Below, piece after piece: positions 24,161 to 61,480 of a DNA stretch of 64,000 nt. Positions within the stretch are counted from its first letter, which is position 1. Each line of letters begins with the position of its first letter. The DNA is taken from positions 36,419,598 to 36,483,597 of the forward strand of contig NC_030385.2 in NCBI RefSeq assembly GCF_001625215.2, written 5' to 3'. The notes beneath the pieces were generated by a model that was not told the origin of the DNA, searched no databases, and worked only from the letters and a program-made list of their open reading frames with translations. Source of the DNA: Daucus carota subsp. sativus (lineage: Eukaryota > Streptophyta > Magnoliopsida > Apiales > Apiaceae). The position numbers and the translations under genes were made by a program.

Positions 24161-24748
24161 GATTCAAACTTAGAATTTGAGTCAAGTGATTGTTGTAACT
24201 AACCACTGTTGTAAAAAATGGTTATATTTTTGGTCTTACAGATGAGGAATATAGTGTTTGAAGCTACGGATTGTTCTATTTAGTACCTTTTGGTTTCGTA
24301 TTACACGGATATTGTTAATGAAATTATGTGATGATACTGATAAGTGACAATATACTTGGTTTGTATCCTAATGATGTTCCAAGCCTTTGATGGTCTAGTT
24401 TTGCTATATAAACATTGGAATCTTGGATTGTACTTGCGCGGAACTTACTAATTTTGTGTCATAGAGTCATAATTGAATTGCATACAAGATAGACGATAGT
24501 GATATAGGCATGTTGGGCCATATTTTTTAAATAAAAATAAGGATATTTTTATAAAAAAATTCATATTTATATAATATTATTTTGATATCATGAATTTTAT
24601 GAAGATTTAATATTTCTTATTTACACAAAAAAGTTATTTGTTTTTCAAAAATAAAACATATTTTCATACTTTTTACACAAATAAATGATTTCTTGATATA
24701 AGTTTTACCAAACGTGACTCAGTGAACCGATGTCTAAAAGCTTACCAA
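24161..24748. other. Intergenic gap between NHL and PPR genes
   Basis: AT-rich; 3' flank of the NHL gene followed by the short upstream region of the PPR gene. No other gene or element seen. Confidence 0.5.
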
Positions 24749-40700: not shown

Positions 40701-43643
40701 GATTACTCCAAAGTATTCATGTTAACTGTTTACTGTTTTTCTTGTGTATACTGCCTTTTGGATGCTGCTTAGAGCCATTGACATAGTCTGTTAATTACTA
40801 ACCTGAATGAGCTGCTTGTATTAGCTCTTGTAACTCTCAAATTTGGTTCAAGAACATGCCAAATTTAAGTAGTACAAGCCTGACTTGGATAGTATCTACA
40901 GTACTTCAGTGATATCTGACTTGGTTTTTATCTCAGCTGAAGATGCCCCAAATGCAACAATCATCCTCTCAACAACAGGATCAGTTACCACAACAAGTGC
41001 AACAGGTTTGTTTGTAGTAGGTATCTTTGGTAGAAACTTGCCTAAAAGAGTTATAAACTGTTAATACTATGCTAGAAAAAGTTTCCTTTTCCTCTACCAA
41101 CACAAGTTGCAAGTTGCAGCGGTGGCACAGTTTCCCTTTTATATTGCACTTTACAATCCAAATGTGGTGTTTTTTGTGGTCTCCTCTGTTTTAGGCTTCC
41201 ATGTTTTAGTTAATGTTTTTTTCTTGTTATCAACATACAGAATAATAACAGAAAGAGAAAACAACACTCGTCTTCTGGACCAGCCAATAGTACTGGTACT
41301 GGAAATACGGTAGGTCCTTCACCAAACTCCCCACCATCAACAACTCATACTGCTGGTGATGGGATAACTACTGCCAGTAGCCTGCAACATGTAAACAGTG
41401 GACATAAAGGGTTAATGATGTATGGTTCAGAAGCAGCAGGCCTTGCATCATCTGCAAATCAGTTGGTAGGCCTTTTTGTATTCTTCATATGCATATACAC
41501 TTCAACCGCTTGTTATTATGTAACTTGGAATATGTTTCTTGTTAAGGCAGTGCTAGTGTTGGGTTAACACCGCCTACTTTCTGTAGTTTAAATAAGCGAG
41601 GAAATGTGCATTATGTTCTTAAAAATTTGTTTGCGCGTATATAGTGTCAAAATTGTGATGTTTAATATGGTGAAGTCCATGAGCAACATGAAGTGAAACA
41701 TTGCCTTGATGCCGAAAGAACGTTTCGTGTTGCAGGACGACATGGATCATTTTGGAGACGTTGAATCTTTTCTGTCTAATGATGGAGAAGATGGACGGAG
41801 TTTATATGGCACGTTAAAACAAAATCTTACTGAACATAAAACTGAGCCTGCTAAAGGTACTGATCTATCTTGTTGACTATGTTTTATACTTTTGCCCAAC
41901 ACTATTAATGCTATATGGTTTTCGTCTCCCATCTTCAGGATTCTCCTTTGGAGAAGTTGGTTGTATACGGACCAGAAACAAGGTCACATGCTGCCATTTT
42001 TCTTCAGACGGGAAGCTGTTGGCTAGTGCTGGGCATGACAAGAAGGTAACAAGCATTATTACAAGTAGTTTCAGAGCTTATTACAATTTATTTTACTGTC
42101 GCAAAGTAGACGTGAGGGGAATATATATGCATGTGAACACATGGTGCTTATCTGACAGGCTGTTCTTTGGAACATGGATACCTTGCGAACGGAGAGCACT
42201 CCTGATGAACACCAGTACTTGATTACAGATGTCCGTTTCAGGCCGAATTCAACTCAGCTGGCGACGGCTTCATATGACAAGTCTGTGCGATTGTGGGATG
42301 CAGCTAATGTAATTTTCTAATCTCAATTGTGTTGTGTATACTTATTATTTATTATTCTGTATACTATTAAGTCTTTAAACCAACACACATGTATTTAAAT
42401 ATTTCACAATCTTTCAGCCAAGCTACTGCTTGCATGCTTATACCGGGCACAATTCTCATGTTATATCCCTCGACTTCCATCCCAAGAAGAACGATGTATT
42501 CTGCTTTTGCGATAGTAACTATGAAATTCGTTACTGGAACATAAGTCCTTTTTCATGCACTCGAGTTTCAAAGGTTAGTTTGTAAACTTAAGTCTTTCTT
42601 CTTCTTGACCACTGTATATTTCTTAAGTAGTAACTTGTTATATTCTGTCTCTATATATTGCTCTTATGCAGCAAGGAGGCAATTCACAAGTACGATTTCA
42701 ACCAGCAAGTGGTCGCCTGCTAGCCGCAGCATCAGATAAAGTCGTGTCCATCTTTGATGTTGAAACTGACATGCAAACACATTCTTTCCAGGTTCGGAAT
42801 TTAATAGTCTTAATGAATCGTGTATAAATTGTTGGCCGCACAGACGTGCATCACTTAATCTGTTACAGGATTGACTTGTCCTTTGACCTATGTTATCAGG
42901 GACACAACAGGGTGGTTAACTATCTATGCTGGGATCTAAATGGTGATTATTTGGCCTCCGTTAGTGAGGAATCTGTAAAAGTTTGGTCGTTGGCCTCTGG
43001 GGAATGCATTCATGAACTCAACTCGAACGGAAACCAGTTCCATTCGTGTGTTTTCCATCCAAGCTATTCAGCTCTCTTGGTTATTGGTGGAATGAGGGTA
43101 ATAATTCTGTTTCCTACAACTTTGTCTACACCTGCACCAAGATATATATTTTATTTAGCATTACGGATTAGTCTATCAGTAAAAGTGGTTACTGAAAAAA
43201 GGATAAAGAGGTCACCGAAATATTTTTGTCTATGTTTTTGTGATCTAAGCAACTAAGCTAAGAACGTAGCGTATAATTATAGTTTCTAAGGTCCAATCTT
43301 TTATTTCTTTCTTCTAATGGTAGGTAATGACATCTTAATGTAGTTATCGGTACTCCAATACAATTAATCGTATTCTAGATTTCTAGTGTGTTCTATGGCG
43401 GACCTTTTCTCAGCATTGTGTTGTGCTGTTTTATTATCCTTTGTACATGAATAATAGTTTCAGTTGCGCAACATTTATGTTTTTGAACACCATATGCAGT
43501 CTTTGGAGTTGTGGAATATGGCAGAGAACAAAAGCATGACAGTACCAGCACATGAAAATATAATTGCTGCTCTGGCACAGTCCCCTCTGACTGGAATGGT
43601 TGCCTCCGCAAGTCATGACAGTTCTGTCAAGTTATGGAAATAG
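37711..43643 (+). CDS. LUH: LEUNIG_HOMOLOG transcriptional co-repressor
   Basis: Seventeen coding exons: 37711-37742, 38191-38288, 38391-38500, 38658-38953, 39035-39104, 39243-39351, 40046-40095, 40186-40437, 40937-41005, 41241-41465, 41736-41856, 41939-42045, 42159-42308, 42418-42573, 42672-42791, 42900-43097, 43500-43643; 768 residues. The N-terminus [20 protein letters not shown] opens the LUFS/LisH domain (to about residue 85, including [15 protein letters not shown]), followed by a Gln-rich middle and a C-terminal WD40 propeller (from about residue 480, ending [13 protein letters not shown]). LUH works with SEUSS-type adaptors as a Groucho/TLE-like nuclear co-repressor in flower, embryo and seed-coat mucilage development. 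The start [10 protein letters not shown] favours LUH over LUG. Introns 6 and 8 contain local duplications. A degenerate copy of exons 13-16 lies at 54 kb. Confidence 0.95.
39394..39955. repeat. Direct duplication in LUH intron 6
   Basis: The segment from 39394 (CGTGTGTAAAAG, TTTTTTGGGCAGCAACATAT) is repeated from 39728 with divergence. The tail of the first copy, ATGGAGACAAATTTGTTACT, is itself repeated once (near 39607 and 39690). Confidence 0.85.
40487..40770. repeat. Tandem duplication of about 142 bp in LUH intron 8
   Basis: Copy one 40487-40629 and copy two 40630-40770 both run from AACTGGTA to CCTTTTGGATGCTGCTT with about 90 percent identity by eye. Confidence 0.92.
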
Positions 43644-44562
43644 TGATTCTGATTAACTGATACTATTTGGAGATGCAGCCCAGCGCTGACCCATAAATTC
43701 TGAGCAATACTGGCATTCGTGGAACCACCAGAGCAGTCTCTCTCAGTCTCAAGTAAATGTAGTATATGTCTTTAGTATCTCTCTTATTCGTCTGGAATGT
43801 TTTTGTTCAGTTGTAGTTTTGTTATATATCTTCCACCTACACTTTCGTTTAGGCTTGAAGCAGCAGATTGGAAGTACACATAGTGAGCTCTTAAAGATTT
43901 AAAAGCCTTATAATCTTTCTTTACTATAGATTTATGCACCTATAATGATAGGAAAATATTAGTGTTATATGTTGGATATTAGTTACTATGTTTTGTTCGT
44001 TCATGTCTTCAGTTTGTTGTTACTTGTAACTAAGCACTTGAATTTTTTGTTGGTGTTTTTGTATCAAGTGCATAATAGTGGAATGTAGGGTTATATGCAG
44101 AGCATTTGAATTTAAAAACTGCCATTTTGACTCTGGAACTTTATTATGTAGTTATCATACATCACTGAGTACATATAATCAATCAAGTATTACCAATCTT
44201 GATGCAATCAGATTTAGGACATTATAATTATGCCACTAGATTATTGTCTATGGCAATAGTTTATTACTCTACTTGAGAACTTATAGCACACGACACACCA
44301 TACTAGTATTCCTTTGTAATCAAGCACAATAAATTTACTTGTTCTTGTACAACTCAACCACACCATATAAATCTGCCCTGGTTATATATTTGGAGCTCGC
44401 AAATCCAGCCTCTTTTCCCAGGATTTGAAATTCTTTGGCAGTCCTCTCTCTTCCCCCATGGGTAAAAGTCATCAGTTGCACATCCAGCTCAAATGCATAC
44501 AAGCTTGAGTAGAGCTGAGCTGGAGTCGGCTCGATGAGAGCCCCAGTAAGTGAGAATTCGAG
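43644..44562. other. LUH 3' flank
   Basis: 3' UTR and downstream DNA of LUH; no element or gene recognised. This interval, with LUH exon 17, is missing from the duplicated copy at 55 kb. Confidence 0.5.
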
Positions 44563-44887
44563 CTATTGCTTTGCACTTACCTGAAGCGGTACAACAACTC
44601 CTCTAGGAACTGATTTAAACATATCTCCACCGATATGGTCAATACTGTACCTGATAACTTTATGTGACACTTTTATCACAATATTCTTCACATGAACAAC
44701 TAAACTACCATATAAGTTTATAATAATCCCGAGACTAAAGTGAATACCTGGCGATGAGGGTGCATTCTCAATAACATGAGGTAGATCAAAGTTAATTCCC
44801 TTGAGATGAGGAGGGTTCATAGAAACAATACAACTCAAAGTTGCACCATGTGCGCCACCTACATCCACTACCTCTTTAACTCCCTCA

Positions 44888-45994
44888 GAGCATCTCCAAT
44901 GGTGCTCTTAAGTCACTCTTCAAAATATAATATAATATTTGGCTCCCAGTGAGTTAAGACGTTGAAAAAGATTTCAACTCCAATGCTCCTCTTTATACTT
45001 GCTCCTTATTCATATTTTATTCATATAAAAGAGAGAGAAAAGTAAAAAGAGAGAATTGTTGGGAGTAAAGTTGGAGGGAAACCAATATTATATTCATGAA
45101 AAAGAAGTTAAGAGCTCTTACATGCTCTTTAAAAGAGAGGAGAGATGTTAAGCTCTTAACTTTTTAAAGAGCTTCTAGGAGCCCATTGGAGCTCTAATTC
45201 TTGCATTGCTCTTTAAATTTGAAGTTAAGAGCTCATTTAGAGAGCCCCTTGGAGATAGGCCTGTCAATGGAGCGAAAATCCGATCCGACCCGATCCGATC
45301 CGAGGTCATTTTAGCGGATATGGATTTGATAAAAAAAAATCCGATCCGAAATTCGATCCGATTAAAAAAATCCGTTAATAAATGGACCGGATATGGATTT
45401 AGGGTGATCCGATCCGTTAATAACCCGATCCGGTCAATAAATAAATAAATAAATATATATATATTAAATATTATATATTATATATTTATAATAATATATC
45501 TTATTCCCAAGATATATTTATATATATTCTTGGTATATATGAATGTATTACTGAAAGTCTGAAAAACTGATATTTTAGGTGTTTAAATACTGATCTCATC
45601 GATCACTAACTAAACAAAAAATAATGTAGTTATTAGCTTGCAAAGCAAAAAAAATATAAACACATGAAAGCACAGGAGATAGACATGAATATATAGTTGC
45701 AGTCAGAGTACTTTCCGCAGCAACAAATAAATTTTAACATTGTTATTTACTTGTTTTATTTGTATTTTAAGTAATGTTAAAGCCATTTAAAAAAATATAT
45801 AAGTAGTGAGTAAATGGATTGGATATCCGATCCGAAATCCGTGATCCTAATGGATATGGATATGGACCGGCTTAAAAAAAATCCGGTCCCGATCCGATCC
45901 GAATCCGAATCCGATAAAATAAATGGATATGGATATGGATTTAGGCCGATCCGATCCAAACCCGATCCATTGACAGGCCTACTTGGAGATGCTC
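44888..45994. mobile_element. MITE with GAGCATCTCCAA termini, carrying a nested hAT
   Basis: Begins GAGCATCTCCAATGG and ends TTGGAGATGCTC; about 373 bp once the nested element and its duplicated 8 bp are removed. The flanking TCA (44885-44887) and TGA (45995-45997) are an imperfect 3-bp duplication. The sister copy at 55770-55790 reads straight through (ACTCCCTCAAATCCTTTCTAC), an empty site. PIF/Harbinger-like termini. Sits inside the OMT remnant. Confidence 0.8.
45256..45981. mobile_element. hAT-type non-autonomous element, 726 bp
   Basis: Perfect 16-bp TIRs: TAGGCCTGTCAATGGA at 45256 and its complement ending 45981. Flanked by a perfect 8-bp duplication CTTGGAGA at 45248-45255 and 45982-45989, diagnostic of hAT. 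Subterminal blocks consist of repeated CCGATCCGAT and GGATATGGAT units. No transposase. Inserted near the right end of the surrounding MITE. Confidence 0.95.
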
Positions 45995-46720
45995 TGATCC
46001 TTTCTACTGTTCAAGTATTGTCATGAAGGTAGGAGCAGACTTTTCCATTGCAATGCTCATAAGTTCAGAGAGGTATTTATCCTTTTCTAATTAGTCAAAT
46101 AATAAAGTTCCCTCATGAATCATGATAAATGGCATCTCTTCCTCCAGAACTACAATTATTACTGATATTTTAAGTTACCGACGATACATATTGGTGAATT
46201 TTGTCGTAGAGTTAGCCGGCTGCTACTCATGTTTGTGCTTTTAGACATGTTTGTACCACTTGGCTGCTGCTATGTTTCGCTGTCATTAGCCAGCCGAAAT
46301 TTGTTGATAATGTACTGCTAATTTGAATCTAATTGACAGCAGCACCTATAATTTCAATATAGATCAGGTATTTCAGAAATTTTATCTTCCAGTTTTTCCT
46401 TTTACTGAATCTCGTTGCATAATACATTCTTTAGAAGTACCCGTTTCCATATTCAAATGATGGTTATCAGCTGCCTCATTTACCTTTGTGGGCATCAGAC
46501 TTAGATGTGAAAGGAATATAATTAGAGCCACTATAGGAATTCACAAATCTAGCAACTGACACTGCAACTTCATCGCCAAGTAAATTTGTTTTAAGAATTC
46601 ATAATACGTGAAAAAATGAAAGTCATAATTATCTTATAATTTATTCTAGTGTACATGAAATACCAGACGACTGTTACCTTGGTATAAACAAGGTATCTAA
46701 TTATCACTGCATAGTACTGG

Positions 46721-46901
46721 CACTAGTTAAAAAACAAGACGCTTATGACTATTATAAACCGACGCTTATGACTATTTTAAGCGTAGCCTAAATAACCGAC
46801 GCAACAGATATATATTTTTAGTGTTTCCTGCCTATACTACGGCACTTGACCGACGTTAAAAATATATTTTGACCGGCGTTATAGGTCCTTTTTTACTAGT
46901 G
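46721..46901. mobile_element. CACTA (En/Spm) miniature element
   Basis: 181 bp beginning CACTAGTTAAAAAA and ending TTTTTTACTAGTG, with a 3-bp TGG duplication at 46718-46720 and 46902-46904. The interior repeats CGACGCTTATGACTATT and CCGACG units, as in CACTA subterminal regions. Confidence 0.93.
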
Positions 46902-47324
46902 TGGTGCTTTAACATGGATAGTCCAGTTCCAAGTAAAGCTTATTTTGATTCTGATACGGAGGAAGTACTATTTATATTCTATTATTTTTGTGTAGATTAC
47001 CAATGTCTAACATGCATCATCTTATCCCAAGCACAACTCAGCGTTTAAGTCTTTAAGATATACATAATGTGAATCTACCAAGTAATCAGATACTACTCAT
47101 CAAAAATTTAGGTTTGCTATAACAACATCTTATACTTTTCAAACATTAGAAAATATATCATCTATACCGGTATGCATGAATAACTTCATCACTCCAACGA
47201 ACAGAAATATCAGGATAGAAACATTAAATTTGATATCCATGAACGAAGGAGCACATGCTGGTTAGGGTTTCTATTGGCGTACCTTGGGTCCAAGAACTCG
47301 GGGAGAAGCAGCTGAAGGCAGTTC

Positions 47325-47700
47325 CATCCCGATATGTACACTCTGAATTTCTATCAACTAAGCAATTCCATGCAGTCGTCACAGTGAGTGGAACAGGAGT
47401 ACTACTTTGCGAAAGTGAAACGACGACAAGATCTTGATCAGTATGTACATATGGCGATGGAACTGTTTTTAGCTGCGTGCAGGTACTTAGTTCCTGGACA
47501 TAAGGTATACTGAATAAAAACCCTAGCTAAAAGCTGCAGGTGCTCCTTCTATTCATGGCTATCAAATTATATGGTTCTAGCTTCTCCGTCTCTTGAAATG
47601 GATACATCTTGGCTACTTGCATGGGTAGCTATATATACGTACACCGGCCAGAAGTAGTTGTTAGTTGGAACTTTATGACATATATGGGCACATACGTAAT
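47325..47700 (+). repeat. Segment present inverted at 50000-50421
   Basis: Runs from TTCCATCCCGATATGTACAC to AGTTGGAACTTTATGACATA. The same sequence, divergent but collinear, occurs on the opposite strand at 50000-50421 and in direct orientation, partly deleted, at 56330-56580. Confidence 0.85.
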
Positions 47701-48429
47701 GAATTAGCTTGCTAGCTAGGGCTCAATAACAATATTTGTACAAATATTGTTAGAGGAATTTGGAATATAAGAATGGAGTATATTTATAGATGATGCACAT
47801 AATTTAGTTTGGGTTTTAGATTTTTAGTTTCAATAGCTCCGTAATATTGTAATTAATTATATAACAAAGTATAAATATATAACCGCTGGATCCCACCAAA
47901 ACTATATGATTACTATTCTTATATTTTCATTTAATTAATTTTGAAATATATATAACAAATTTATATATTCCAAGGTATTTTTGTTAAATTTATAGTTGAG
48001 TATTAAACTTATAACAATTTATAATTGAATATTAAGTTTATAATAATTTAATACTCAACTATCTACCTGTTTAGAAACTTACCGCTGAGTTATAAATATT
48101 TTTGTTCCTATCACGAACATTACCTTTATATTAGAATTTAACTATTTCATTAACTATCACGTTGTCTCTTAGAAAATGATTTTAGATATTCTTGTTAAGT
48201 TGAATAATTAATTATTAAAAATATCATCATAAATTATTTTATGACATAACCTAACTATTATATACTCGATAATGTCCACATATATTTAAATTATTGTGAA
48301 AATAGTACATAACAAAGAGAGTAAAAAGTAGTTTATAATTATATATTCAAAATAATAATTCAAAAATAACTTCTGCTCTCTAATAAAATAGTTGTGATCG
48401 TCCGTGAAATTTTTTGAACACAGGACCTA

Positions 48430-48850
48430 CAGCAACATCCTTAGCTTGTGTACTTGGAAATTCTAAGTTCGAATATAATTGGAATGAGTATAGTTGTAAA
48501 ACGCGAACTAAGAAGTTGGAAAAAACGAGACCTAGCTAATTTAAGAAGAGCTGCATGATGATTGCATGTTCAATACTGCAGGTAATAATTTAAGTAAATT
48601 CGTGCTGGTCAATGTTCCCAGGGACTTCTTATAACCACACAAGTACTCAAGTAAGTTAGCAGCAATTATCTTCATTCTTTTTACTCTGCAAGTGCTTCCC
48701 AAAATACTCCCGACATGTTTTTCAGTTTTCAACATTTTCCACCTACTTACAGAAAAGCAAAAAAAAGGAATCTGCATAAAAAAAATCAATAAAAGCCCGC
48801 AGCCGACTTTAAACTTAAATCTTCTCCACATATATATATTCATCCATCAC
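48430..48850 (+). repeat. MYB-upstream repeat, copy 1 (no MYB follows)
   Basis: Shares CCTTAGCTTGTGTA, GGAAATTCTAAG, CGCGAACTAAGAAGTT and ATGATTGCATGTTCAATACT with copies at 50580-51300 and 57580-58080. Unlike those, it is not followed by a MYB gene; unrelated sequence begins near 48860. Confidence 0.85.
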
Positions 48851-49079
48851 AACTTTTGGTTGTAATTTTTTTTCATAGGTTGTATATCCAACTGTATTAG
48901 CTTCTCGATCCCAAGAAGCTGTAATAATGCCTTTACCTTTAAAATTCATAAATCTGTCATACATATTTCACAGCAGTTATAATTAATCTAGAGAGAGATT
49001 AACTTGGTTCCTCTGTTAAAAATAAGAAGATGTTTTATCTTAATTCTTTTATTTTTTTTCCGCAGCCGGATGATGATAA

Positions 49080-49380
49080 CCATATAGTAATTTACAAAAT
49101 TAACAACTGACACCGCAACTAATTCATCGCTCTATAATTCATAATATTTGAAAAAAGTGAAAGTCATTATTATATATGTTATACAGTACTATTATTTTAG
49201 TATACATGAATACCAAGAGTATTATCTCAGTATGTACGAGATATCATATACTCCCTCCGTCTGGGGGCGGAATTTGACACTTATCTTAAAGCTCTGTTAA
49301 TTATAATTTATATTTTTAGTTTGTTCTTTTAAATAAAAATTTATTTTTTAATTTATACGGGTGGTGCTTAACATGCATAA
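49080..49380 (+). repeat. Left part of the sub-duplicated unit
   Basis: Matches 46540-46710 and 46900-46960 (CAACTGACACTGCAACT..., TGAAAGTCATAATTAT, CATGGATAGTCCAGTTCCAA) with divergence. Where the older copy carries the CACTA element this copy has a sequence starting with the Stowaway terminus CTCCCTCCGTC at 49253, with no matching right end found. Confidence 0.6.
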
Positions 49381-49999
49381 TCCAATTCCAAGTACAACTT
49401 ATTTTGATTTTGATACCGACTATTTACTCTTTGGCTCTCACATCTCTTAACACTTTCACCAACTATTTGATATGTATTTTAAAGTACATATAAAATATAA
49501 GTTTACAACTTAACTTTTTCCAAAAAAATTCTTATTCTGTATAAAAATTTAAACATTAAATTTTTATTTAAAGAAAATATTAAAAATAATTTATCAAATT
49601 ATATTTTATGAGAATCTTAAATCATCTAATCATCCCAAGTATATCTCAGCGTATTACTGTACATGAGGTGTTAACATCTATCAAGTATTCACATCATCAA
49701 AAATTGAGGTATACTTTAAGAACAGCTTAAACATTCAACAATATCATCTAATTGCTTTGATATACATGTATGAAGGAGGACATGCTGTTTAGGGGTTGTA
49801 TTGGCGTATCCAAGAACTCGGGGAGGAGCCCTTCAGCTGCTCCTCCCCTTATTCCATTTCTACATTGATGTTTCCAGCCAAACTTTTTCAAAAAGTTTAA
49901 ATACATTCATATTTTGTCACTATAAACTCATACTTTCTTATTTCTCATTAAAACTTCTACATAATTTTTCATATCATTCTCCCCTCATTCCATCCAAGT

Positions 50000-50442
50000 G
50001 AACACAACCTAAGTATGTGTCCATATGTCATGAAGTTCCAACTAACGACTCTTTCTAGCTAGTGTGTACATAGTACATATATATATAGCAACCTATGCAA
50101 GAAGCCAAGATATTGTATCCATTTCAAAAGATGGAGAAGCTAGAAACATATAATCTGATAGCCATGAATGGAAGGAGCACCTGCAGCTTAATTTTAGGGT
50201 TTTTATTCAGTGTACCTTCTGTCCAAGAACTAATTAATTAAGCACCTGCACACAGCTAAAAGCAGTGACTTTCATCGTCATATGTGTACATACTGATCAG
50301 GATCTTGTAATCGTTTCACTTTCTCAAAGTAGCTAGTACTCCTGTTTCAGTCACTGTGACTGCAATATTGAATTGCTTAATTAGTTGATAGAGATTCAGA
50401 GTGTACATGTCGGGTTGGAACGTTCCAACCCGATATGTACAC
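50000..50442 (-). repeat. Inverted segment ending in a 42-bp near-palindrome
   Basis: 50000-50421 is the reverse complement of 47325-47700 (with divergence). At its right end two 21-bp arms, GTGTACATGTCGGGTTGGAA plus C at 50401-50421 and their complement at 50422-50442, meet without spacer and differ at one base pair. Confidence 0.9.
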
Positions 50443-50579
50443 CCATGAATGTATAATGAACACGAGATTATAAGTAAAGAAATTATATATGTACAGAGCA
50501 AAGAGTAAAAAGTAGTTTATTATATATTCAAAAATAATAATATTCCAAGAATAACTTTTACTCTCTAATAAATTAGTTG

Positions 50580-51300
50580 TGATCCTTAGCTTGTGTAATT
50601 GGAAATTCTAAGGGTTCGAATATCATTAGAATGAGTATAAGTTGTAAAATGCGAACTAAGAAGTTGGAAAAAACGAGACCTAATCGCGGAAGAACCACAT
50701 GATGATTGCATGTACAATACTGAAGATAACAATTTAAGTAAATTCGTACTGATCAATGTTCCTAGGGACTTCTCTTAAACCACACAACTGAAGTAAGTTA
50801 AGAGCAATTGTCTTCATTCTCCTATCACCAAAGTTTCCACGGCTTCTAGAGAGGATTAACTATATAATAAGCATTGAAGGCTCCATTTAATTGTAAGAGA
50901 AACAAATTAAATTATTTCTTGCAGTTCATCTTGATTTCTAGAACGAGTCCTCTCCTTGGCCCCCATGCAATCCCTGAAAGACTATTCCGGCCGTTGCAGA
51001 CTTGCAGTAGCGGAGCACATTCTTTTTTACTCTGCCAGCAAGTGCATGCTTCAGTTTCCAACTACTTACACAAAATACTCCCGACATGTATTTTAGTTTT
51101 CAACATTCCCACCTACTTACACGAAAGACTTCGGACATGGATTACAGATTTCAATTTCGTTCCAAGATAACTGGAAAAAGAATCTGCATAAAAATTCAAT
51201 AAAAGTCTGCAACTTGATATATTAGACACAAGTTTATGCTAGCTTAATAATTAATTAGTTGTTGATTCTAGAAAATATATAGTACAATAATGCCTTCTGG
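50580..51300 (+). repeat. MYB-upstream repeat, copy 2
   Basis: Homologous to 48430-48850 and 57580-58080, running on through the GGAAAGTAATTCGACTGGAC stretch near 51300, and followed by the first MYB gene. Confidence 0.85.
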
Positions 51301-51439
51301 AAAGTAATTCGACTGGACAGTGTTCTAAAATGGGGCGGGAAAGTATAGGGATGAAACACAAGTTTAAACCATATGCTGTACTTTAAGACAGACAAGTATA
51401 TATACATTTTAAAATAATTACATAAAAATAAAAAATAAA

Positions 51440-51610
51440 AAATAGTGCATTTGTGCACATTCTCCACGTAGGCGCGGGGAAAAAAATAATCAAATATTCT
51501 CTCCAGCAAGCCTTTGTATGCACTAATATATATGGGGAACAGCTTGGGGGCAGTGAGGCCAATAAAACGTATAATGTTGAGTATTGCTTATATACATATG
51601 CATGTAGATA
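51440..51610 (+). promoter_or_regulatory. Proximal promoter of MYB gene 1
   Basis: Conserved with 58530-58736 before the second MYB: GTGCATTTG, CAAATATTCTC, GCCT(T/C)TGTAT and AATAAAACGTATAAT occur in the same order. A TATA-like ACTAATATATATGG lies about 90 bp before the ATG; the second copy has TGTATATACCATAAAT instead. Confidence 0.55.
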
Positions 51611-53242
51611 ATGGGAAGGAGACCGTGCTGTGATAACATCGGGCTAAACAAAGGGGCATGGACTGCTGAAGAGGACAAGAAGCTCGTCAACTTCGTTCTT
51701 ACCAATTACAAGTGCTCCTGGAGAGATGTTCCTAAACATGCAGGTATTATAAGTACATATTAGGTTGTATAAGTATACATTGGCTTCTTCTTTAAAACAT
51801 TTATGTCTTCATTTCTTTGATTGTTAAAAGATAACTATGCATGGATGGTTGCATTACAGGACTACTAAGGTGCGGGAAGAGCTGCAGGCTGAGATGGGTA
51901 AATTATCTAAGACCAGATTTGAAGAGGGGCCTTTTAACGCAACACGAAGAGAAGCTTGTTATTGACCTCCATTCTCAATTTGGTAACAAGTATGTTTTTG
52001 GGTATTTACACTATGCATTTTACTTCTCATTGCACTTTAGAAACCAATGACTACTTGTAAAATGATTGCCTGCGGTTCATTCATTATTGTGTGTTTATAT
52101 GAAGATACAAATATGATATTTTGGATCTTTGTGAGTGTTTGTTAGCATAAAACAAAACATACATACATATATAGAATTAATCATCTGTATGAAATTATTT
52201 ATTGATTGCGACAAGTGTTTGTTTGCTAAAGTCTGCCTCGTCAAACAACTTGGGCAGATGGTCAAAGATTGCTTCACATATGCCCGGGAGAACTGATAAT
52301 GAAATCAAGAATTTGTGGAATACCCACATCAAGAAAAAATTAAGCAAGATGGGAATTGATCCTCTTACTCACAAGCCACTAAATGCTTATCCTCCTCCGG
52401 ATAATCATCACAAACACTACCAATCCCAAGAAGCAGAACTACCAAATGGAGAAGAAACACAAGAGCATCATAAAGATCAAGAAGATGAGATTTCGTTAAA
52501 TTTAGAGGAGTCGACCATCACTCACACTGATGATCAACTGGCTAAAGAGCAAGAGTTAATGGACACCAACAATGGTTTTTTACAGCAAGTCCCGATGAAT
52601 AATGAACCTGATGAAAACAATGATAATGCCTTTTCTATATATGAAGTCCCAATTATTGAACCCTACGAACCTGATGAAAACAATGATAATGCCTTTTCTA
52701 TATATGAAATCCCAATTATTGAACCCTATAAAAACACCGAAGATGGCTTTTCTACACATGAAGTCATGTTAAGTGAATCCAATGAAAACACTAATAATGA
52801 CTTTTCTACACATGAAGTCCCATTGATAAAATCCAATGATAACATTGACGAATGTTTTTTTTCAGATGCAGTTCCGTCGATTGAACTCGAGGAACCCGAT
52901 GAAAACACGAACAATAACTTTTTTATACATGAATTCCAGTCTATTGAACCCGAAGAAACTCTCCGGCCTGATTTATCATCATCTTGTTCTTCAACTACTT
53001 GTTCTAATACAAATGCATCAACTACAATTTCTATTCTTGAGGATTTGAAGTCTTTGCAATCTTTTGAAGATTGGCAGAGTGGTGGTCATAAAAAACTTTA
53101 CATTGAAAACTCGGGTGTCACCTGTGAGGATGATTTCAGTGATTGGAATTGGTTGATTAATGATTTTGATATTGACACAATTGATTTTGAACTTATTAGA
53201 TCTCTTCCCGACCCTGTGTCTCTCAAGAATAGTCTTGGATGA
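51611..53242 (+). CDS. R2R3-MYB transcription factor, copy 1
   Basis: Three exons, 51611-51743, 51860-51989 and 52258-53242, at the usual R2R3-MYB intron positions; 415 residues. R2 begins about residue 14 ([16 protein letters not shown]) and contains [21 protein letters not shown]3 runs from [14 protein letters not shown] to [20 protein letters not shown] and NTHIKKKL, followed by [14 protein letters not shown]. That junction motif is typical of the MYB20/40/42/43/85/99 group, several of which control secondary walls and phenylpropanoid supply. The tail holds about six imperfect copies of a roughly 20-residue unit ([17 protein letters not shown] type, nt about 52612-52960), then a Ser/Thr-rich stretch and an acidic end with [19 protein letters not shown], a likely activation region. 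A second, shorter-tailed copy is at 58740. Confidence 0.9.
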
Positions 53243-53984
53243 AGAATGTTGCAAGTGCCAGCTGATCTAATAAATTGTAATAATGATTGAAGAGTTAATT
53301 AGTTATACTCTTTATTCACTTTAATTTAAGTGTAACTTTCAACTGTATTGGAATAAATTAAATATAAATTATCAATTTAATAGTGTACTCTTTTTTCACT
53401 TTAATAATCTAAGTGTAACTTTTAACTGTAGAAATATATGAAAAATCAATTATCAATCTAATAGTGTATATCACTCTTTTCGTGACATTCCCAAATCCAA
53501 GTAATTCGTTGGATTTTGATCATCATGTTTATAGAAAACTTAATTACATGTAAAATCGCACGCAACGGTACTTAGTCTATAGTTATTAGAAACCAAATAC
53601 ATTAGTCATCATACTTAAACCAATGAGGATTTTCAATTAATGTGTATGTATCCTTATTTTACTCTATTTCGACAAATATATATGAAGATTGCCTTCTTTT
53701 TGGCATATATATATATCTGGTTGATCTGAGCTGAATGGATAAGTGTTTATGCAATTATATTTATTATCGATTTTGAGCAAAAGATTTGTTACTGTTTATT
53801 TAAACAGCTTAGTTTTATAATTTCATTGACCACTATCTTAGTTTTTGGATTTTGGCCCCTTTATCATAAGTTAATAATGTCTCAAATATCAGGTCCGGAA
53901 AATTTGATCTCAAATATCACTTTATAACATTACATCATTTAGCACAGAAACGCGGCATCATGTAGTATTTATCATTCTTTTTAA
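53243..53984. other. Downstream region of MYB 1 and duplication junction
   Basis: 53243-53800 is homologous to 60098-60860, the downstream region of MYB 2, minus the foldback insertion there. Between about 53800 and 53985 the sequence is unique and contains the junction of the tandem duplication. Confidence 0.7.
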
Positions 53985-55145
53985 GTCCAATACATAGGTA
54001 TGTGAACAAATGATGCTTATCTGACAGGCTGTTCTTTGGAACATGGATACCTTGCGAACGGAGGACACTCCCGAAGAACACCAGTTCTTGATTACAGATG
54101 TCCGTTTCAGGCCGAATTCAACTCAGTTGGCGACGGCTTCATATGACAAGTCTGCGCGATTGTGGGATGCAGCTAATGTAATTTTCTAATCTCTATTGTG
54201 TTGTGTATGTACTTGTTTATTATTCTGCATACTATGAAGTACTCTTTAAACCAACACACATGTATTTAAATATTTCACAATCTTTCAGCCAAGCTACTAC
54301 TGTTTGCATGCTTATACTGGGCACAACAATCATGTTATATCCCTAGACTTCCATGAAGAAAAATGATATATGTAATCTGATTTTGCGATAGTAACAATGA
54401 AATTCGTTTTTGGAACGTAAGTCCATTTTCATGCACTACTTGAGTTTCAAAGGTTAGTTTGTGAACTTCTTATGCCTTTCTTCTTCTCGACAACTGTACA
54501 TTGCTTAATTAAGTAGTAGTTATAACTTGTTATATTTTGTCTCTCTCTATATTGCTCTTATGTAGCAAGGAGGCAGTTCACAAGTACGATTTCAACCAGC
54601 AAGTGGTCGCCTGCTAACCGCAGATAAATAAATCGTGTCCATCTTTGATGTTAAAACTGACATGCAAACACATTATTTCCAGGTTAGGGATTTAATAGTC
54701 CTGATGAAACGCCTATAAATTGTTGGCCGCACACTAGACACTTACCCTGTACTAGTTACAGGATTGACTTGCACTTTGACCTATGGTATCAGGGACACAT
54801 ACAAAAGGGTGGTTAGCTATCTATGCTGGGATCTAAATGGTGATTATTTGGCCTCTGTTGGTGAGGAATCTGTAAAAGTTTGGTCGTTGGCCTCTGGGGA
54901 AAGCATTCAAGAACTCAACTCGAACGGGAACCAGTTCTATTCGTGTGTGTTTTCCATCCAAGCTATTCAGCTCTATCTTGGTTATTGGTGGAATGAGGGT
55001 AATAATTTTGTTTCCTACAACTTTTTCTACACCTGCACCAAGATATGTATTTTATTTTGCATTACGGATTAGTCTATCAGTAAAAGTGGTTACTAGAAAA
55101 AGGATACAGAGGTCACCAAAATTTTTTGTTTATGTTTTAACTAAA
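53985..55145 (+). pseudogene. Partial LUH duplicate (exons 13-16)
   Basis: Homologous to 42130-43240, introns included, so a DNA-level duplication and not a retrocopy. Exon 13 (54028-54177) is intact; exon 14 is broken after DFH (about 54354) by a small deletion/insertion; exon 15 has lost two codons and gained TAA (near 54630); exon 16 is largely kept ([20 protein letters not shown]) but frameshifted near its end. Exon 17 and everything upstream of exon 13 are absent. It could not make a propeller. Confidence 0.93.
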
Positions 55146-55167
55146 TTAATTAAGAACGTAACCCTAA

Positions 55168-55464
55168 AGACTGTGTTCATTTAGATGGAATGTAATTAGG
55201 GAAGAATGGAATGGAATTTGTACTATAAATTGGGTGTGATTAGAGAAATTGTACTATTTGAACTATAAATCTAGCCCACATGTTTTGGAAGGAATATTCA
55301 TTCCATTTGTTCATTATGTTTCCCGATCATCTTTTTCATGAAAATCAGTTTAACTCACTCATATTTAATTTAGTGTCTCATACTTTCTTATTTCTTCATA
55401 AAACTTCTCTATATATTTTCATTCCATTCTCCTCAAATTCCATTTCATATAAGTGCACGCAGCC
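55168..55464. mobile_element. MITE with TAA target duplication
   Basis: 297 bp beginning AGACTGTGTTCATTTAGATG and, inverted from the right end, GGCTGCGTGCACTTATATG; flanked by TAA at 55165-55167 and 55465-55467. Interior rich in GGAATGGAAT and its complement. The right half of a related copy lies near 49850-50012 (ending CAAGTGAACACAACC). Confidence 0.75.
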
Positions 55465-55599
55465 TAAGCACTTAATCACTTGAGTTTTTATTTAACACCA
55501 CCAAGATATGTATTTTATTTAACATGCGGATTAGTCTTTCAGTAAAAGGGGTTACCAAAAAAGGAAAAAGAGTACGGATTAGATGGACACAGGTGACAG

Positions 55600-55950
55600 T
55601 TCATCATAATATCGAGACTAAAGTGAATACTTGGCAATGAGGGTGCATTAATCTCAATAACATGAGGACTGAGGTAGATGAAAGTTAATTCCCTTGAGAT
55701 TAGGGTTCATAGAAACAATACAACTCAAAGTTGCACCACCTACATCTACCACTTCTTTCACTCCCTCAAATCCTTTCTACTTTTCAAGTATGGTCATGAA
55801 AGTAGGAGCAGACTTTTCCATTGCATTGCTCATAAGTTCAGCGAGGTGTTTATCAGCTTTTTCTAATTAGTCAAATAATGAAGTTCCCTCATGAGCCATA
55901 TGGCATCCCTCCCTCCAGAACTAATTACTGATATTTGAAGTTACCGATGA
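55600..55950 (-). pseudogene. Second O-methyltransferase remnant
   Basis: Homologous to 44720-44884 plus 45995-46160 but without the MITE/hAT insertion. The block around the SAM motif is shortened and frameshifted, and the block corresponding to IDHIGGDMF is gone. Shares decay with the first remnant, suggesting the gene was already damaged before duplication. Confidence 0.75.
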
Positions 55951-56129
55951 TGCATATTGGTGAATTTTGTCGTAGAGTTAGCCGGCTGCTACTCATGTTT
56001 GTGCTTTTAGACATGTTAGTTGGCTTGTCAAATCCAAAAGGTACCAGCTGGCTGCTGCTATGTTTCGCTGTCATTGGTTTGATAATGTACTTCTAGTAAA
56101 TTGAATGATTTTGTTGGCGGATGTTAATC

Positions 56130-57579
56130 CAAGTTCTACGCATTATAGTTATAAAAAAGATTTGTTTTGAATATAGACGGTATTCCTTTTTTTTTCATAG
56201 GGCTAAAAAATTTCTTCAACTAATTATGATGAAACTGAGCAAACTCCTGACAAAATTTATACAGACCAACAAAATTTGAATTTTAGACAGAACTAGTGTA
56301 ATAAATTTCCATTCTAAAACCTGGTTTCGTTGCAGTGACAGGAGTACTTTCAGAAAGTGAAACAACGACAAGATTTTGATCAGGATGGACATATATATGG
56401 CGATAAAATTGTTTTTCGTTGCAGGTGCTCCTTCCATTAATGGTTACAAATTATATGTTTCTACTTTCTAGCTTCATTTTTTGAAATGGTTACATCTTGG
56501 CAGTTGGCTTCTTGCATGGGTAGCTTATAACACACACCTAGAAAGAGTTGTTAGTTAGCCATAATTCATTTATATATTTCAAAATGTCTAACAATATATA
56601 TTTGTACAAATATTGTTATCGACATATAGGCACATACTCTTAATAAATTAGCTAGCTAGCTAGGCTTCAATAACAATATTAGTACAAATATATATTGTGA
56701 GGAATTTGAAATATAAAAATAGAGCATATTTGTGGATGATGTAAAAATCACATAAATTTAATTTTGATTTAACATTTTGATTTCAATGACTCGTTAAAAT
56801 TAAAATTAATTATTTAATAAAATATAATTAATTAATTATATTTTCATTTAACTATGTAATTCCGAGTAACTCTCACATTTTCATTTAATTCCTGGTAACT
56901 CTCATATTTTCATTTAAGTATTTTTGATATAACATATATACAATTTTATATATACATGTTATGGACTAGTGTATTAGTATATATTCTCATTTTTATCCCG
57001 CTAATTAATGTGTTTTTCATATGATGGGGTCATATATGTCCTACTTATATTGTTCTCGACAGGTGACTTATAGGGGGTGTTTGTTTCGGGCTTAAAAGCC
57101 GGGCTTCTGGTTTATAAGTTAGAAGCCCTTATTTGTATTTGTACCGTTTGTTTAAATTGTATTTGTACCGTTTGTTTAAAAAGTCAAGAAGCACTTATTA
57201 AAAGCTTGGAATGCTAGCTTTTGTTTCAGGTTTCTGCTTATTTCCCAAACACTTTAATCACTTATAAATTTTAACTTGCTTCTAACACTTCTACTCCACT
57301 TTTTTATTTTAAGCAAGAAGTACTTATTTTAAATTCACCCAAACGACCCCATAATAATCAACAAATTGTTTACATATATTATATGTCGAATAATATAAAT
57401 AAGTAGGCTTGTATATATAGGATACGAGATTAGCAAAAGAAAGTACAAAGAGAGTAAAAGGTAGTTTATTATACATTCAAACTAATATTTCAAGAATAAT
57501 TTTACTCTCTAGCTAGCTAATAATTCCTTTGTGATCTTCTTTTGAATTATTTTTTTTAACACAGGACCACAGTCTACAG
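56130..57579. other. Duplicated intergenic DNA of unit 2
   Basis: 56330-56780 matches 47360-47840. No gene seen. A GTTTG-type MITE (57073-57350) interrupts the stretch. Confidence 0.6.
57073..57350. mobile_element. MITE with GGGGGTGTTTG termini
   Basis: 278 bp beginning GGGGGTGTTTGTTTCGGGC and ending CACCCAAACGACCCC, flanked by ATA on each side (57070-57072, 57351-57353). The interior (AAGAAGCACTTATT, AGCTTTTGTTTCAGG) resembles the MITE in the kinase intron at 30296. Confidence 0.65.
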
Positions 57580-58080
57580 CAACGTCCTTAGCTTGTGTAA
57601 TTGGAAATTCTAAGGGTTCGAATGTCATTGGAATGAGCATAGTTGTAAAACGCGAACTAAGAAGTTACAAAAAACGGGACCTAATCAAAGAAGAACTACA
57701 GGATATGATTGCATGTTCAATACTGCAGTCTGCGCGTAGATAACAATTTCAGTAAATTCGTACTTGTCAATATGTTCTCAGGGACTTTCTAAAACCACAC
57801 AACTCAAGTAAGTTAGCAGCAATCATCTTCATTCTTTTTTACTCCGCAAGTGCATGCTTACTTCCACAAAATACTCCCGAGTAGTCCCGACATGTTTTTC
57901 TAGTTTTCAACATTTTCCACTAACTTACAGAAAAGGAAAAAAGAAGAATCTGCATAAAAAAATCTATAAAAGACTGCAACTTAAAATATATTATATATGC
58001 TAGCTAATTAATAAGTTGTTGATTCTAGAAAATATGTACAATAATGTCTTGTGGAAAGTAATTAGACTAGACACTATTCT
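57580..58080 (+). repeat. MYB-upstream repeat, copy 3
   Basis: Third copy of the block described at 48430 and 50580; followed by unique AT-rich DNA (58110-58500) and then the second MYB promoter and gene. Confidence 0.85.
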
Positions 58081-58739
58081 GAAATGGGGGTTTCTTATTG
58101 GACAAAATAATTAAATATATAATAATATTTATGGTCCAGACTTTAAAATGAACATAAGTAAAATATTTGGTATTTTACCTATAAGAAAACAGTACTTAAA
58201 TTCAAATAAAAAATTCTTGAATTCACAAATTAGATTAGTTATTTTAAACCAGGTTATAAAGAATTAAATTAACTTTTACTTACACCCTTCTTCTCTTTTC
58301 AATAACCTTGTTTATTTAAATAAAATGCTTAATAATATCTCTTCTTTGTTCGATATAATTTTTGTACTATTTTCAGTGTTTGACTATAAATAACTCCCAC
58401 AACTTTCTAAAATTATTAAAAAATAATTATGAAATATAATAAAACAGATGAAAATTTGGTTATATTAATTAATACAATTTTAGTGATGATAAAGATAAAA
58501 AAAAATCACATTAATTTAAAATTTCTTAATGTAGTGCATTTGCCCACGTTCCCCACATGGGGCGAAGTAAAAATTCAAATATTCTCCCCCGCAACTCCAA
58601 AGCCTCTGTATATACCATAAATAGAAGAGGACTGAGGAGCGCGATTGTGCTACAGTATATATGAGGAACAGTATGGGGGCATTGAGTGGAATAAAACGTA
58701 TAATCTTGTAAATTACATATATATAGATACATCTAGATG

Positions 58740-60097
58740 ATGGGAAGGAGACCGTGCTGTGATAACACCGGGCTGAACAAGGGGGCATGGACTGCTGAAG
58801 AGGACAAGAAGCTCGTCAATTTCGTTATCACCAATAATTACAAGTGCTCCTGGAGAGATGTTCCTAAACATGCAGGTACTATGAGAGTATGAGTACATAA
58901 TACACTGGTTTCTTTTTTAAAACATTTATGTCTTCAATTCTTTGATATATTGATAAAAGAAACTATGCATGGCTGGTTGCATCTATTATAGGACTACTAA
59001 GGTGTGGTAAGAGCTGCAGGCTGAGATGGGTAAACTATTTATCACCGGATTTGAAGAGGGGCCTTTTAACCGAACACGAAGAGAAGCTTGTTATTGACCT
59101 CCATTGTCAATTTGGCAACAAGTATGTTTTTGTGTATTTACACTATGCATTTTACTTCTCATTGCACCTTAGAAATCGATGACTAGCTACTTGTAAAATG
59201 ATTGCCTGTAAAATTATACATAGAATCATCTGTATGAAATTATATATTGCTTGCAACAATTGTTAATTTGCTAAATTCCGCCTGATCAAACACTTGGGCA
59301 GATGGTCAAAGATTGCTTCGCACATGCCGGGGAGAACTGATAATGAAATCAAGAATCTGTGGAATACTCACATCAAAAAAAAATTAAGCAAGATGGGAAT
59401 TGATCCTCTTACTCACAAGCCACTAAATGCTGATCCTCCTCCGGATAATCATCACGATCACTACCAATCCCAAGAAGCAGAACTAGCAAATGGAGAAGAA
59501 ACAAAAGAGCATCATAAAGATCAACAGATTTCGTTAATTTTAGAGGGGTCGACCATCACTCACGCTGATGATCAACCGGCTAAAGAGCAAGAATTGATGG
59601 GCACTAAAGATGGTTTTATACCCAATGAAAATAATGATAATGCCTTTTCTATATATGAAGTCCCACTTATTGAACCCTATAAAAACACCGAAGATGGCTT
59701 TCCTACACATGAAGTTCTCTTGCTTGAACCCAATGAAAACATTATAGATGGCTTTTCTACACCTAAAGTCCAGTTCACTGAATCCGAAGGAACTCTCCCG
59801 GGTCATCATTTACCATCATCTTGTTCTTCAACTGCTTGTTCTAATACAAGTGCATCAACTACAATTTCTACGTCAACAACCAACTCAATTCTTGAGGATT
59901 TGAAGTCTTTGCAATCTTTTGAAGATTGGCAAAGCGATGGTCACAGAAAAATTTGCATGGAAAACGCAGGTGACGCTTATGAGGATGATTTCATCGATTG
60001 GAATTGGTTGATTAATGATTTTGATATTGACACAATTGATTTTGAACTTATTAAGTCTCTTCCTGACCCTATTACTCTCCAGAATAATCTTGGATGA
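58740..60097 (+). CDS. R2R3-MYB transcription factor, copy 2
   Basis: Three exons, 58740-58875, 58992-59121 and 59302-60097; 353 residues. An in-frame ATG directly precedes the start (58737), so the protein could begin MMGRR. The DNA-binding domain is nearly identical to copy 1, with a one-codon insertion ([10 protein letters not shown] versus VLTNYKCSW), Ser for Arg in [10 protein letters not shown], and Glu for Gln in LLTEHEEK. The tail carries about three of the roughly 20-residue units ([17 protein letters not shown] type, nt about 59620-59790), half as many as copy 1, then the same Ser/Thr-rich stretch and the [19 protein letters not shown] end. Both copies look functional. Confidence 0.9.
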
Positions 60098-60174
60098 AGA
60101 ATGTTGCCAAGTACTAGCTCTAGTAAACTATAGTAATAATGATTTAAGTGTTAGTTATACTCTCTGTTTACTAT

Positions 60175-60520
60175 TTTGGTCTGTAACAATCGATTGTTGC
60201 AGAACCCTTGTCCAACACACAGCTTCAGAGCCCTTAGATCTGTATTTTAATGGTGGAGATGAAAGCTTTTTTTTTTTTACCGATCCGCTATAATTTTCCG
60301 TGGATCGGAGCTTTTCCCTTCCGCGGATATTATCCGCGGAAGGGAAAAGCTCCGATCCGCTAATATCCGCGGAAGGGAAAAGCTCCGATCCGCGGAAAAT
60401 TATAGCGGATCGGTAAAAAAAATGCTTCAATCTGGACCCTTCAAATAGAAATCCGACGGCCCTGGTAGTGTGTGTTATATAAACGGTCCCTGACACACGG
60501 TTATCAGGGACCAGGACCCT
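60175..60520. mobile_element. Foldback element with a strong internal hairpin
   Basis: 60279-60414 is an almost complete inverted repeat: ACCGATCCGCTATAATTTTC at the left pairs with its complement at the right, and GGATCGGAGCTTTTCCCTTC pairs with two tandem copies on the right. Weaker inverted similarity continues outwards to about 60175 and 60520. The region after MYB 1 (near 53315) lacks this DNA, so it is an insertion. Termini and target duplication are not clear enough to name a family. Confidence 0.75.
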
Positions 60521-61003
60521 TAACTTAATTGTATCTTTCAACTGTATTGGAATAAATGAAATATCAGTGACAATTTCAATCTAATAATATCTTCATTCTT
60601 TTCGTGACACCCCAAATCAAGCTATGTTAAATTCATATCGACGTCATGTTTATAGAAATACTCAATTAAATATAAAACCACAAGCAATGCACCAGTAATA
60701 CATATATAAGTCACATATAAAATCACGAGGCTGTTAACATGTGTGTACCAGTGTATGTATCTTTGTTTTACTCTATTTGGTCAAATGGGAAGATTGCCAT
60801 TTTTGACATATACCTGGTTTTGATTTCTGAGCTGAATGGGTAAGTGTAATTATTTTCATTGTATACCAATATTAAAAAGTATTACCTAGTTTTTTTTTTT
60901 ACAAACAAATGATTTTATTATGACGAAATTTAAAAGATTTTACAAAATTTAAAATGATTTAAAATGGTGATGCTTATCTTAAGATGCTAATTTAATATTA
61001 TCA

Positions 61004-61477
61004 ATGACCATATGTCGTAGTGAAAATGATACGTGGTATTGGCGTAAGGAGAAGTTGGGTCATTATTCAGTGAAGAGCTCTTACTTATTGATCCAGGATG
61101 GAAAGGAGAACAGCCAAACAAGTGATAACTCAGGGTTTTGGAGGCAAATGTGGAATCTTAAGATACCCGTGAAAGTTAAACATTTTTTATGGCGTGCTGT
61201 TTCCAATTGTTTACCTACTAAAGACCTGCTCAGAAGAAGGAAGGTGGATGTTAATTTAGTGTGTCCTATGTGTCAAAATTCAGCAGAGACTGTTTTACAC
61301 ATTCTGGTGGAATGCTCGTTTGCTTCAGCTTGCAACCAGCTTGTTTTAGACCAAGCCATTCAGGAAGAATTTCACACTTTCGCAGATTGGTTGCATCTGG
61401 TATTTGAGCAATGCAGAAGCGAGAAGATTCGTGTGCTGGTTATGGTTTGTTGGATGATTTGGAAAAGTCGGAATGAT
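61004..61477 (+). pseudogene. Non-LTR retrotransposon fragment (zf-RVT region)
   Basis: Reads through HYSVKSSYLLI, WRQMWNLKIPVKVKHFLWRA, CLPTKDLLRRR and CPMCQNSAETVLHILVEC, the zinc-binding region that follows reverse transcriptase in plant LINE-type proteins. The reverse transcriptase domain itself is absent, and after MIWKSRND the reading frame runs into the end of the Harbinger-like element at 61481. A dead fragment. Confidence 0.85.
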
Positions 61478-61480
61478 CTA

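Follow-up and report, generated by a model that had tools for sequence, protein, structure and literature searches.

Two tandem R2R3-MYB genes of carrot, here called MYB1 and MYB2, carry in exon 3 an in-frame repeat of 18-21 residues, whose array is open throughout, present in both paralogues and unequal in length, with six clear units in MYB1 and three in MYB2. The array is a coding minisatellite, and we consider it probable that it serves as a spacer, acidic and tolerant of length changes, that affects activation modestly at most. Both genes lie in the window, by which we mean the whole 64,000-nt stretch of DNA that was analysed (Daucus carota subsp. sativus, GCF_001625215.2, NC_030385.2, 36,419,598-36,483,597, forward strand); Table 1 lists their exons, the repeat units and the surrounding duplication, with positions given relative to the window.

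Introns in both genes are bounded by GT-AG and the frames are open throughout. Pfam PF00249 (Myb_DNA-binding) matches two stretches in each protein (1.1e-29 in MYB1, 3.1e-29 in MYB2), and both proteins thus have the two adjacent N-terminal MYB repeats that define an R2R3-MYB; the plant MYB WER (6kks) aligns to aa 12-117 of MYB1. That MYB2 might be a pseudogene was also considered, and is ruled out by its open frame and proper splice sites. Both proteins may belong to the MYB20/40/42/43/85 group. Within the R3 repeat, the motif EIKNLWNT has Leu in both MYBs (52313-52315 in MYB1 and the equivalent MYB2 codon), at a position occupied by Tyr in the aligned WER and by His in c-MYB. At E values up to 10, Pfam gave no named domain in either tail (a weak match, under the cut-off, overlaps the MYB domain) and the PDB gave no match to the repeat array. 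A scan of viral contigs using MYB1 aa 1-129 gave no match, as expected of a plant gene. Elsewhere, the window, whose gene content suggests plant DNA, carries a PPR protein (24689-26821), a kinase and an SLC35F-like transporter, all recognised by Pfam.

Read by eye, the MYB1 array (52610-52954) has six clear units besides a degenerate one, and the MYB2 array (59627-59788) has three besides a remnant. TRF reported 63 bp x 2.0 at 52604-52728 (98% matches) and 54 bp x 3.2 at 52674-52848 in MYB1, and 54 bp x 2.8 at 59620-59771 in MYB2. The best internal self-alignment of the MYB1 tail scores 240, against a mean of 43 and a maximum of 64 in shuffled sequences, and that of the MYB2 tail scores 78 against a shuffled maximum of 50; in both cases 0/100 shuffles reached the observed score. 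Low complexity as the source of the signal is rejected by this test. Nor does one near-identical pair of units make the whole repeat; with one of these copies removed, the MYB1 tail still scores 149 against the maximum of 64 (0/100 shuffles). The counts of about six and about three units given in the initial annotation agree with the reading by eye. It had also described two adjacent MYB1 units as nearly identical in DNA, and the 63-bp copies at 52604-52666 and 52667-52729 indeed agree in 61/63 bases, a few bases away from where they had been placed.

The units run head to tail, exceed 10 nt, keep the frame and lie within a single exon, as expected of a coding minisatellite; variability in unit number is seen between the two paralogues only (6 vs 3 clear units). 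Among the plus-strand frames, the coding frame alone is free of stops in the MYB1 array and in the MYB2 array. Single units have a net charge of -2 to -7 and 1-3 aromatic residues each, and the arrays as a whole a net charge of -28 over 115 aa (MYB1) and -10 over 54 aa (MYB2), in agreement with the earlier description of acidic, aromatic-containing units in unequal number in a duplicated R2R3-MYB pair.

Table 1. Positions in the window of the duplicated segments, the two MYB genes, their repeat units and their C-terminal regions.
Feature	Position	Strand	Remarks
Duplication copy 1 (LEUNIG-like 3' part through MYB1)	42120-53988		11.9 kb; blastn self-comparison
Duplication copy 2 (truncated LEUNIG-like fragment through MYB2)	53989-60157		6.2 kb; blastn self-comparison
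MYB1, R2R3-MYB gene	51611-53242	+	exons 51611-51743, 51860-51989, 52258-53242; 415 aa
MYB1 degenerate unit U0	52562-52609	+	aa 190-205; sequence reading, outside unit statistics
MYB1 unit U1	52610-52672	+	aa 206-226
MYB1 unit U2	52673-52729	+	aa 227-245; near-identical to U1
MYB1 unit U3	52730-52783	+	aa 246-263; counterpart MYB2 U2 (84% DNA)
MYB1 unit U4	52784-52837	+	aa 264-281
MYB1 unit U5	52838-52897	+	aa 282-301; most divergent, 61-65% DNA to other eight units
MYB1 unit U6	52898-52954	+	aa 302-320
MYB1 acidic/aromatic C-terminal region	53126-53215	+	aa 378-407; candidate main activation domain, alike in MYB2
MYB2, R2R3-MYB gene	58737-60097	+	exons 58737-58875, 58992-59121, 59302-60097; 354 aa
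MYB2 unit U1	59627-59680	+	aa 199-216; counterpart MYB1 U1/U2 (96%, 94% DNA)
MYB2 unit U2	59681-59734	+	aa 217-234
MYB2 unit U3	59735-59788	+	aa 235-252
MYB2 acidic/aromatic C-terminal region	59981-60070	+	aa 317-346

The reading frame of the array has been kept, while the amino-acid sequence of the units shows no clear constraint. When MYB1 is compared with MYB2, the DNA-binding domain (118 codons) has a dN/dS of 0.07, the linker (71 codons) 0.91, the array (61 codons) 0.84, a value that depends on how the units are paired, and the remainder (95 codons) 0.63. Among the nine units, pooled pN/pS is 0.98 (pN 0.286, pS 0.291), although each unit offers about 10 synonymous sites, so few that a moderate degree of constraint could escape detection. 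The pooled value covers 35 of the 36 pairs, the U1-U2 pair being excluded, and the unit statistics do not include MYB1 U0 or the MYB2 remnant. Invariant nucleotide columns number 16 of 51, with 3, 6 and 7 of them at codon positions 1, 2 and 3, respectively, so that third positions are invariant no less often than the other two. An Asn and a Phe are invariant in 9/9 units, and two such columns arise by column shuffling with P 0.15. On the pooled ratio near 1 and this pattern of invariant columns, we see no visible protection of the unit sequence, although its frame is kept. Individual pairings differ; pN is below pS for U2 and MYB2 U1 (0.05 vs 0.10) and for U3 and MYB2 U2 (0.14 vs 0.24), and above it in two other pairings with MYB2 U3. 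The linker has a low dS of 0.07 (MYB1 aa 119-191 against MYB2), compared with 0.29 in the DNA-binding domain, which may reflect gene conversion or small numbers.

The two genes belong to the two copies of a tandem segmental duplication, whose matches are broken in pieces comprising the LEUNIG-like 3' part, an O-methyltransferase-like fragment, intergenic DNA and the MYB gene. Since one copy is almost twice as long as the other (Table 1), either one has gained DNA or the other has lost it. The LEUNIG-like 3' parts (42120-43238 and 53989-55138) are 88.6% identical over 1,159 aligned bases. In the first of these genes Pfam recognises a LisH motif at 38153-38548 and WD40 at 42828-43253, and the gene is presumably LEUNIG-like, as we have named it; the second match starts within the gene and lacks the LisH end, and hence looks like a truncated remnant. 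The O-methyltransferase-like fragment (44566-44907, minus strand; Methyltransf_2, 2e-12) lies between the LEUNIG-like gene and MYB1, and part of it (44715-44848) reappears at 55598-55738. Just 3' of MYB2 is an inverted repeat (60271-60422, 89% over 155 aligned bases) that resembles a foldback or MITE-type insertion, and a zf-RVT domain near MYB2 (60983-61555; Pfam 9.5e-22) is probably a retroelement remnant.

Some units can be matched across the duplication. MYB1 U1 and U2 resemble MYB2 U1, and MYB1 U3 resembles MYB2 U2 (identities in Table 1), and these cross-paralogue pairs exceed the matches to other units, except for that of U1 with U2. Such correspondences suggest an array partly older than the duplication; part of it probably predates the duplication, or was exchanged since. 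Over 51 nt, MYB1 U1 and U2 are 98% identical and closer to each other than to MYB2 U1, by a margin of one or two bases, and this copying within MYB1 probably came later than the duplication. That it is recent, as the initial annotation had it, has modest support. If sites diverged at 0.12, roughly as in the LEUNIG-like segment, a 63-bp pair with no more than two differences has P 0.019, but at 0.06, the divergence of this unit from its MYB2 counterpart, P rises to 0.27. A tree of the nine units, with support values from 0.11 to 0.90, does not fix the order in which units were gained or lost, and the difference across U4-U6 may be a gain in MYB1 or a loss in MYB2. A half-unit comparison for a mosaic origin of MYB2 U3 gave no clear signal.

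Acidic activation domains have been described by two composition rules, one strict and one relaxed, applied to tiles of 39 residues (PMC10550315); these are human-derived, and a plant protein that fails them may still be active. In MYB1, 3/377 tiles pass the strict rule, covering aa 285-323 (a single tile, with 36/39 residues within the array) and aa 368-407, while 10/316 pass in MYB2, covering aa 307-354. All but one of these 13 tiles (12/13) fall in the C-terminal DWNWL region, and no tile wholly within an array passes (0/77 in MYB1, 0/16 in MYB2). The relaxed rule is passed by 53/377 MYB1 tiles, covering the linker (158-206), the end of U4 to past U6 (272-336) and the tail (356-415), and by 35/316 MYB2 tiles, covering U1-U2 of the array (197-240) and the tail (284-354). 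Relaxed tiles wholly within the MYB1 array number 11/77, against a mean of 11.4 in 2000 shuffles; in the MYB2 array there are 3/16, against a mean of 1.3, and 15% of 2000 shuffles reach this count. In MYB1 U1-U2, relaxed matches stop at the first residue, and the array appears acidic but poor in W, F and L where its expansion was probably latest. On these strict and relaxed results, the EDDF-DWNWL region near the C-terminus, alike in both MYBs, is a better candidate for an activation domain than the array. Charge-hydropathy scores do not discriminate disorder here, being negative for all six segments (-0.270 and -0.146 for the arrays) including the folded MYB domain (-0.079).

It had been proposed that the units tune activation strength by copy number. 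Were the units, acidic and Phe-containing, to act additively as activation modules, each would bind a coactivator, copy number would set the strength and the paralogues would have diverged accordingly. The charge and aromatic content of the units would suit such a role, as would the invariant Phe and Asn, the relaxed matches in part of each array and the strict tile lying almost wholly in that of MYB1. However, the strict rule passes nothing wholly within either array, relaxed tiles are in no clear excess over shuffles, U1 and U2, probably the newest copies, have no relaxed match past the first residue, and pooled amino-acid constraint is absent among the units. As far as a human-derived rule can speak for a plant protein, these results do not support the proposal, and we regard activation modules as unlikely. 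A broader version, in which a lineage-specific coding minisatellite is an evolvable dial whose unit number sets activation or avidity, so that tandem paralogues diverge in output, seems to us decidedly unlikely.

It is also very unlikely that the array is drifting neutrally in a functionless linker or is spliced from the mature transcript. The frame has survived several length changes in both copies, and when exon 3 was scanned with simple patterns, donor-like matches occurred only downstream of the arrays (53122-53124 and 59968), even though a pooled pN/pS near 1, the twofold difference in unit number between the paralogues and an acceptor-like pyrimidine-AG match at 52855 within the MYB1 array all point the other way. 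Least probable of all is a docking or modification platform with copy-dependent avidity, built on F-x-x-x-E-V-P as a partner motif or on FSxxE as a CK2-type site (the CK2 consensus is S-x-x-E). In its favour, FSxxE occurs in 5/9 units (MYB1 U1-U4 and MYB2 U1); against it, the motif is missing from MYB1 U5 and U6 and MYB2 U2 and U3, and so short a consensus would presumably be common by chance in acidic tails.

We therefore return to the acidic, length-tolerant spacer. The units, 54-63 bp in size and each a multiple of three, constitute a minisatellite in exon 3 of both MYBs and encode an acidic stretch, probably disordered, that joins the DNA-binding domain to the acidic/aromatic C-terminal region retained in both copies. 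At least part of the array would have been in place before the segmental duplication, after which slippage or unequal exchange may have altered the number of units, probably by the U1/U2 copy in MYB1 and by gain or loss, in one gene or the other, in the U4-U6 zone. The spacer would be kept for its frame and general acidic character; its effect on activation would be additive and modest at most, with the C-terminal region doing most of the activating.

Variation of internal tandem repeats between paralogues has been reported from human segmental duplications (De Grassi and Ciccarelli, 2009; PMC2812944). As there, we find recent paralogues that differ in coding repeat number, and minisatellite expansion is one of the headings of that paper; unlike those genes, which are human, primate-specific and members of large groups of paralogues, ours encode a plant transcription factor and form a tandem pair of two. 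The array also resembles the coding minisatellites reviewed by Gemayel et al. (2012; PMC3899988), with a unit of more than 10 nt in an open reading frame and a number that changes via slippage, recombination and conversion. Minisatellites are described there as prevalent in extracellular and cell-surface genes, and microsatellites as enriched in transcription-factor genes, and against this pattern a 54-63 bp unit in the tail of a transcription factor is the less usual case.

Tandem-repeat number is likewise known to matter at R2R3-MYB genes, namely OsKala3 and, in apple, the R6 repeat of MdMYB10 (as cited in PMC8585765). However, those repeats are located in promoters, where they alter expression, whereas that of MYB1 and MYB2 alters the protein. 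R2R3-MYBs of the MYB20/42/43/85 type are regulators of lignin and the cell wall (PMC3756741, PMC7290928), and MYB43 has an R2R3-MYB domain, three exons and two introns (PMC7290928), as do MYB1 and MYB2. The accessible portions of these two descriptions make no mention of a tail repeat, a comparison that presumes the membership of MYB1 and MYB2 in this type. The initial annotation was aware of no such repeat in this MYB group; among the matches listed in a literature search, no title or opening of an abstract described tandem repeats that code for part of an R2R3-MYB tail. Searching with unit and tail peptide strings returned no paper, which is weak evidence of absence, as sequences rarely appear in papers in a form that a text search can find.

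The repeat is genuine and of a kind already known, and tuning by unit number is possible, though not favoured by the tests made here. If copy number did alter activation, a coding rather than a promoter repeat would be tuning a plant MYB, and the relation of minisatellite length to transcription-factor strength would be testable within one tandem gene pair. The pair clearly exemplifies how the tail of a MYB changes by gain and loss of units alongside a DNA-binding domain that stays almost constant.
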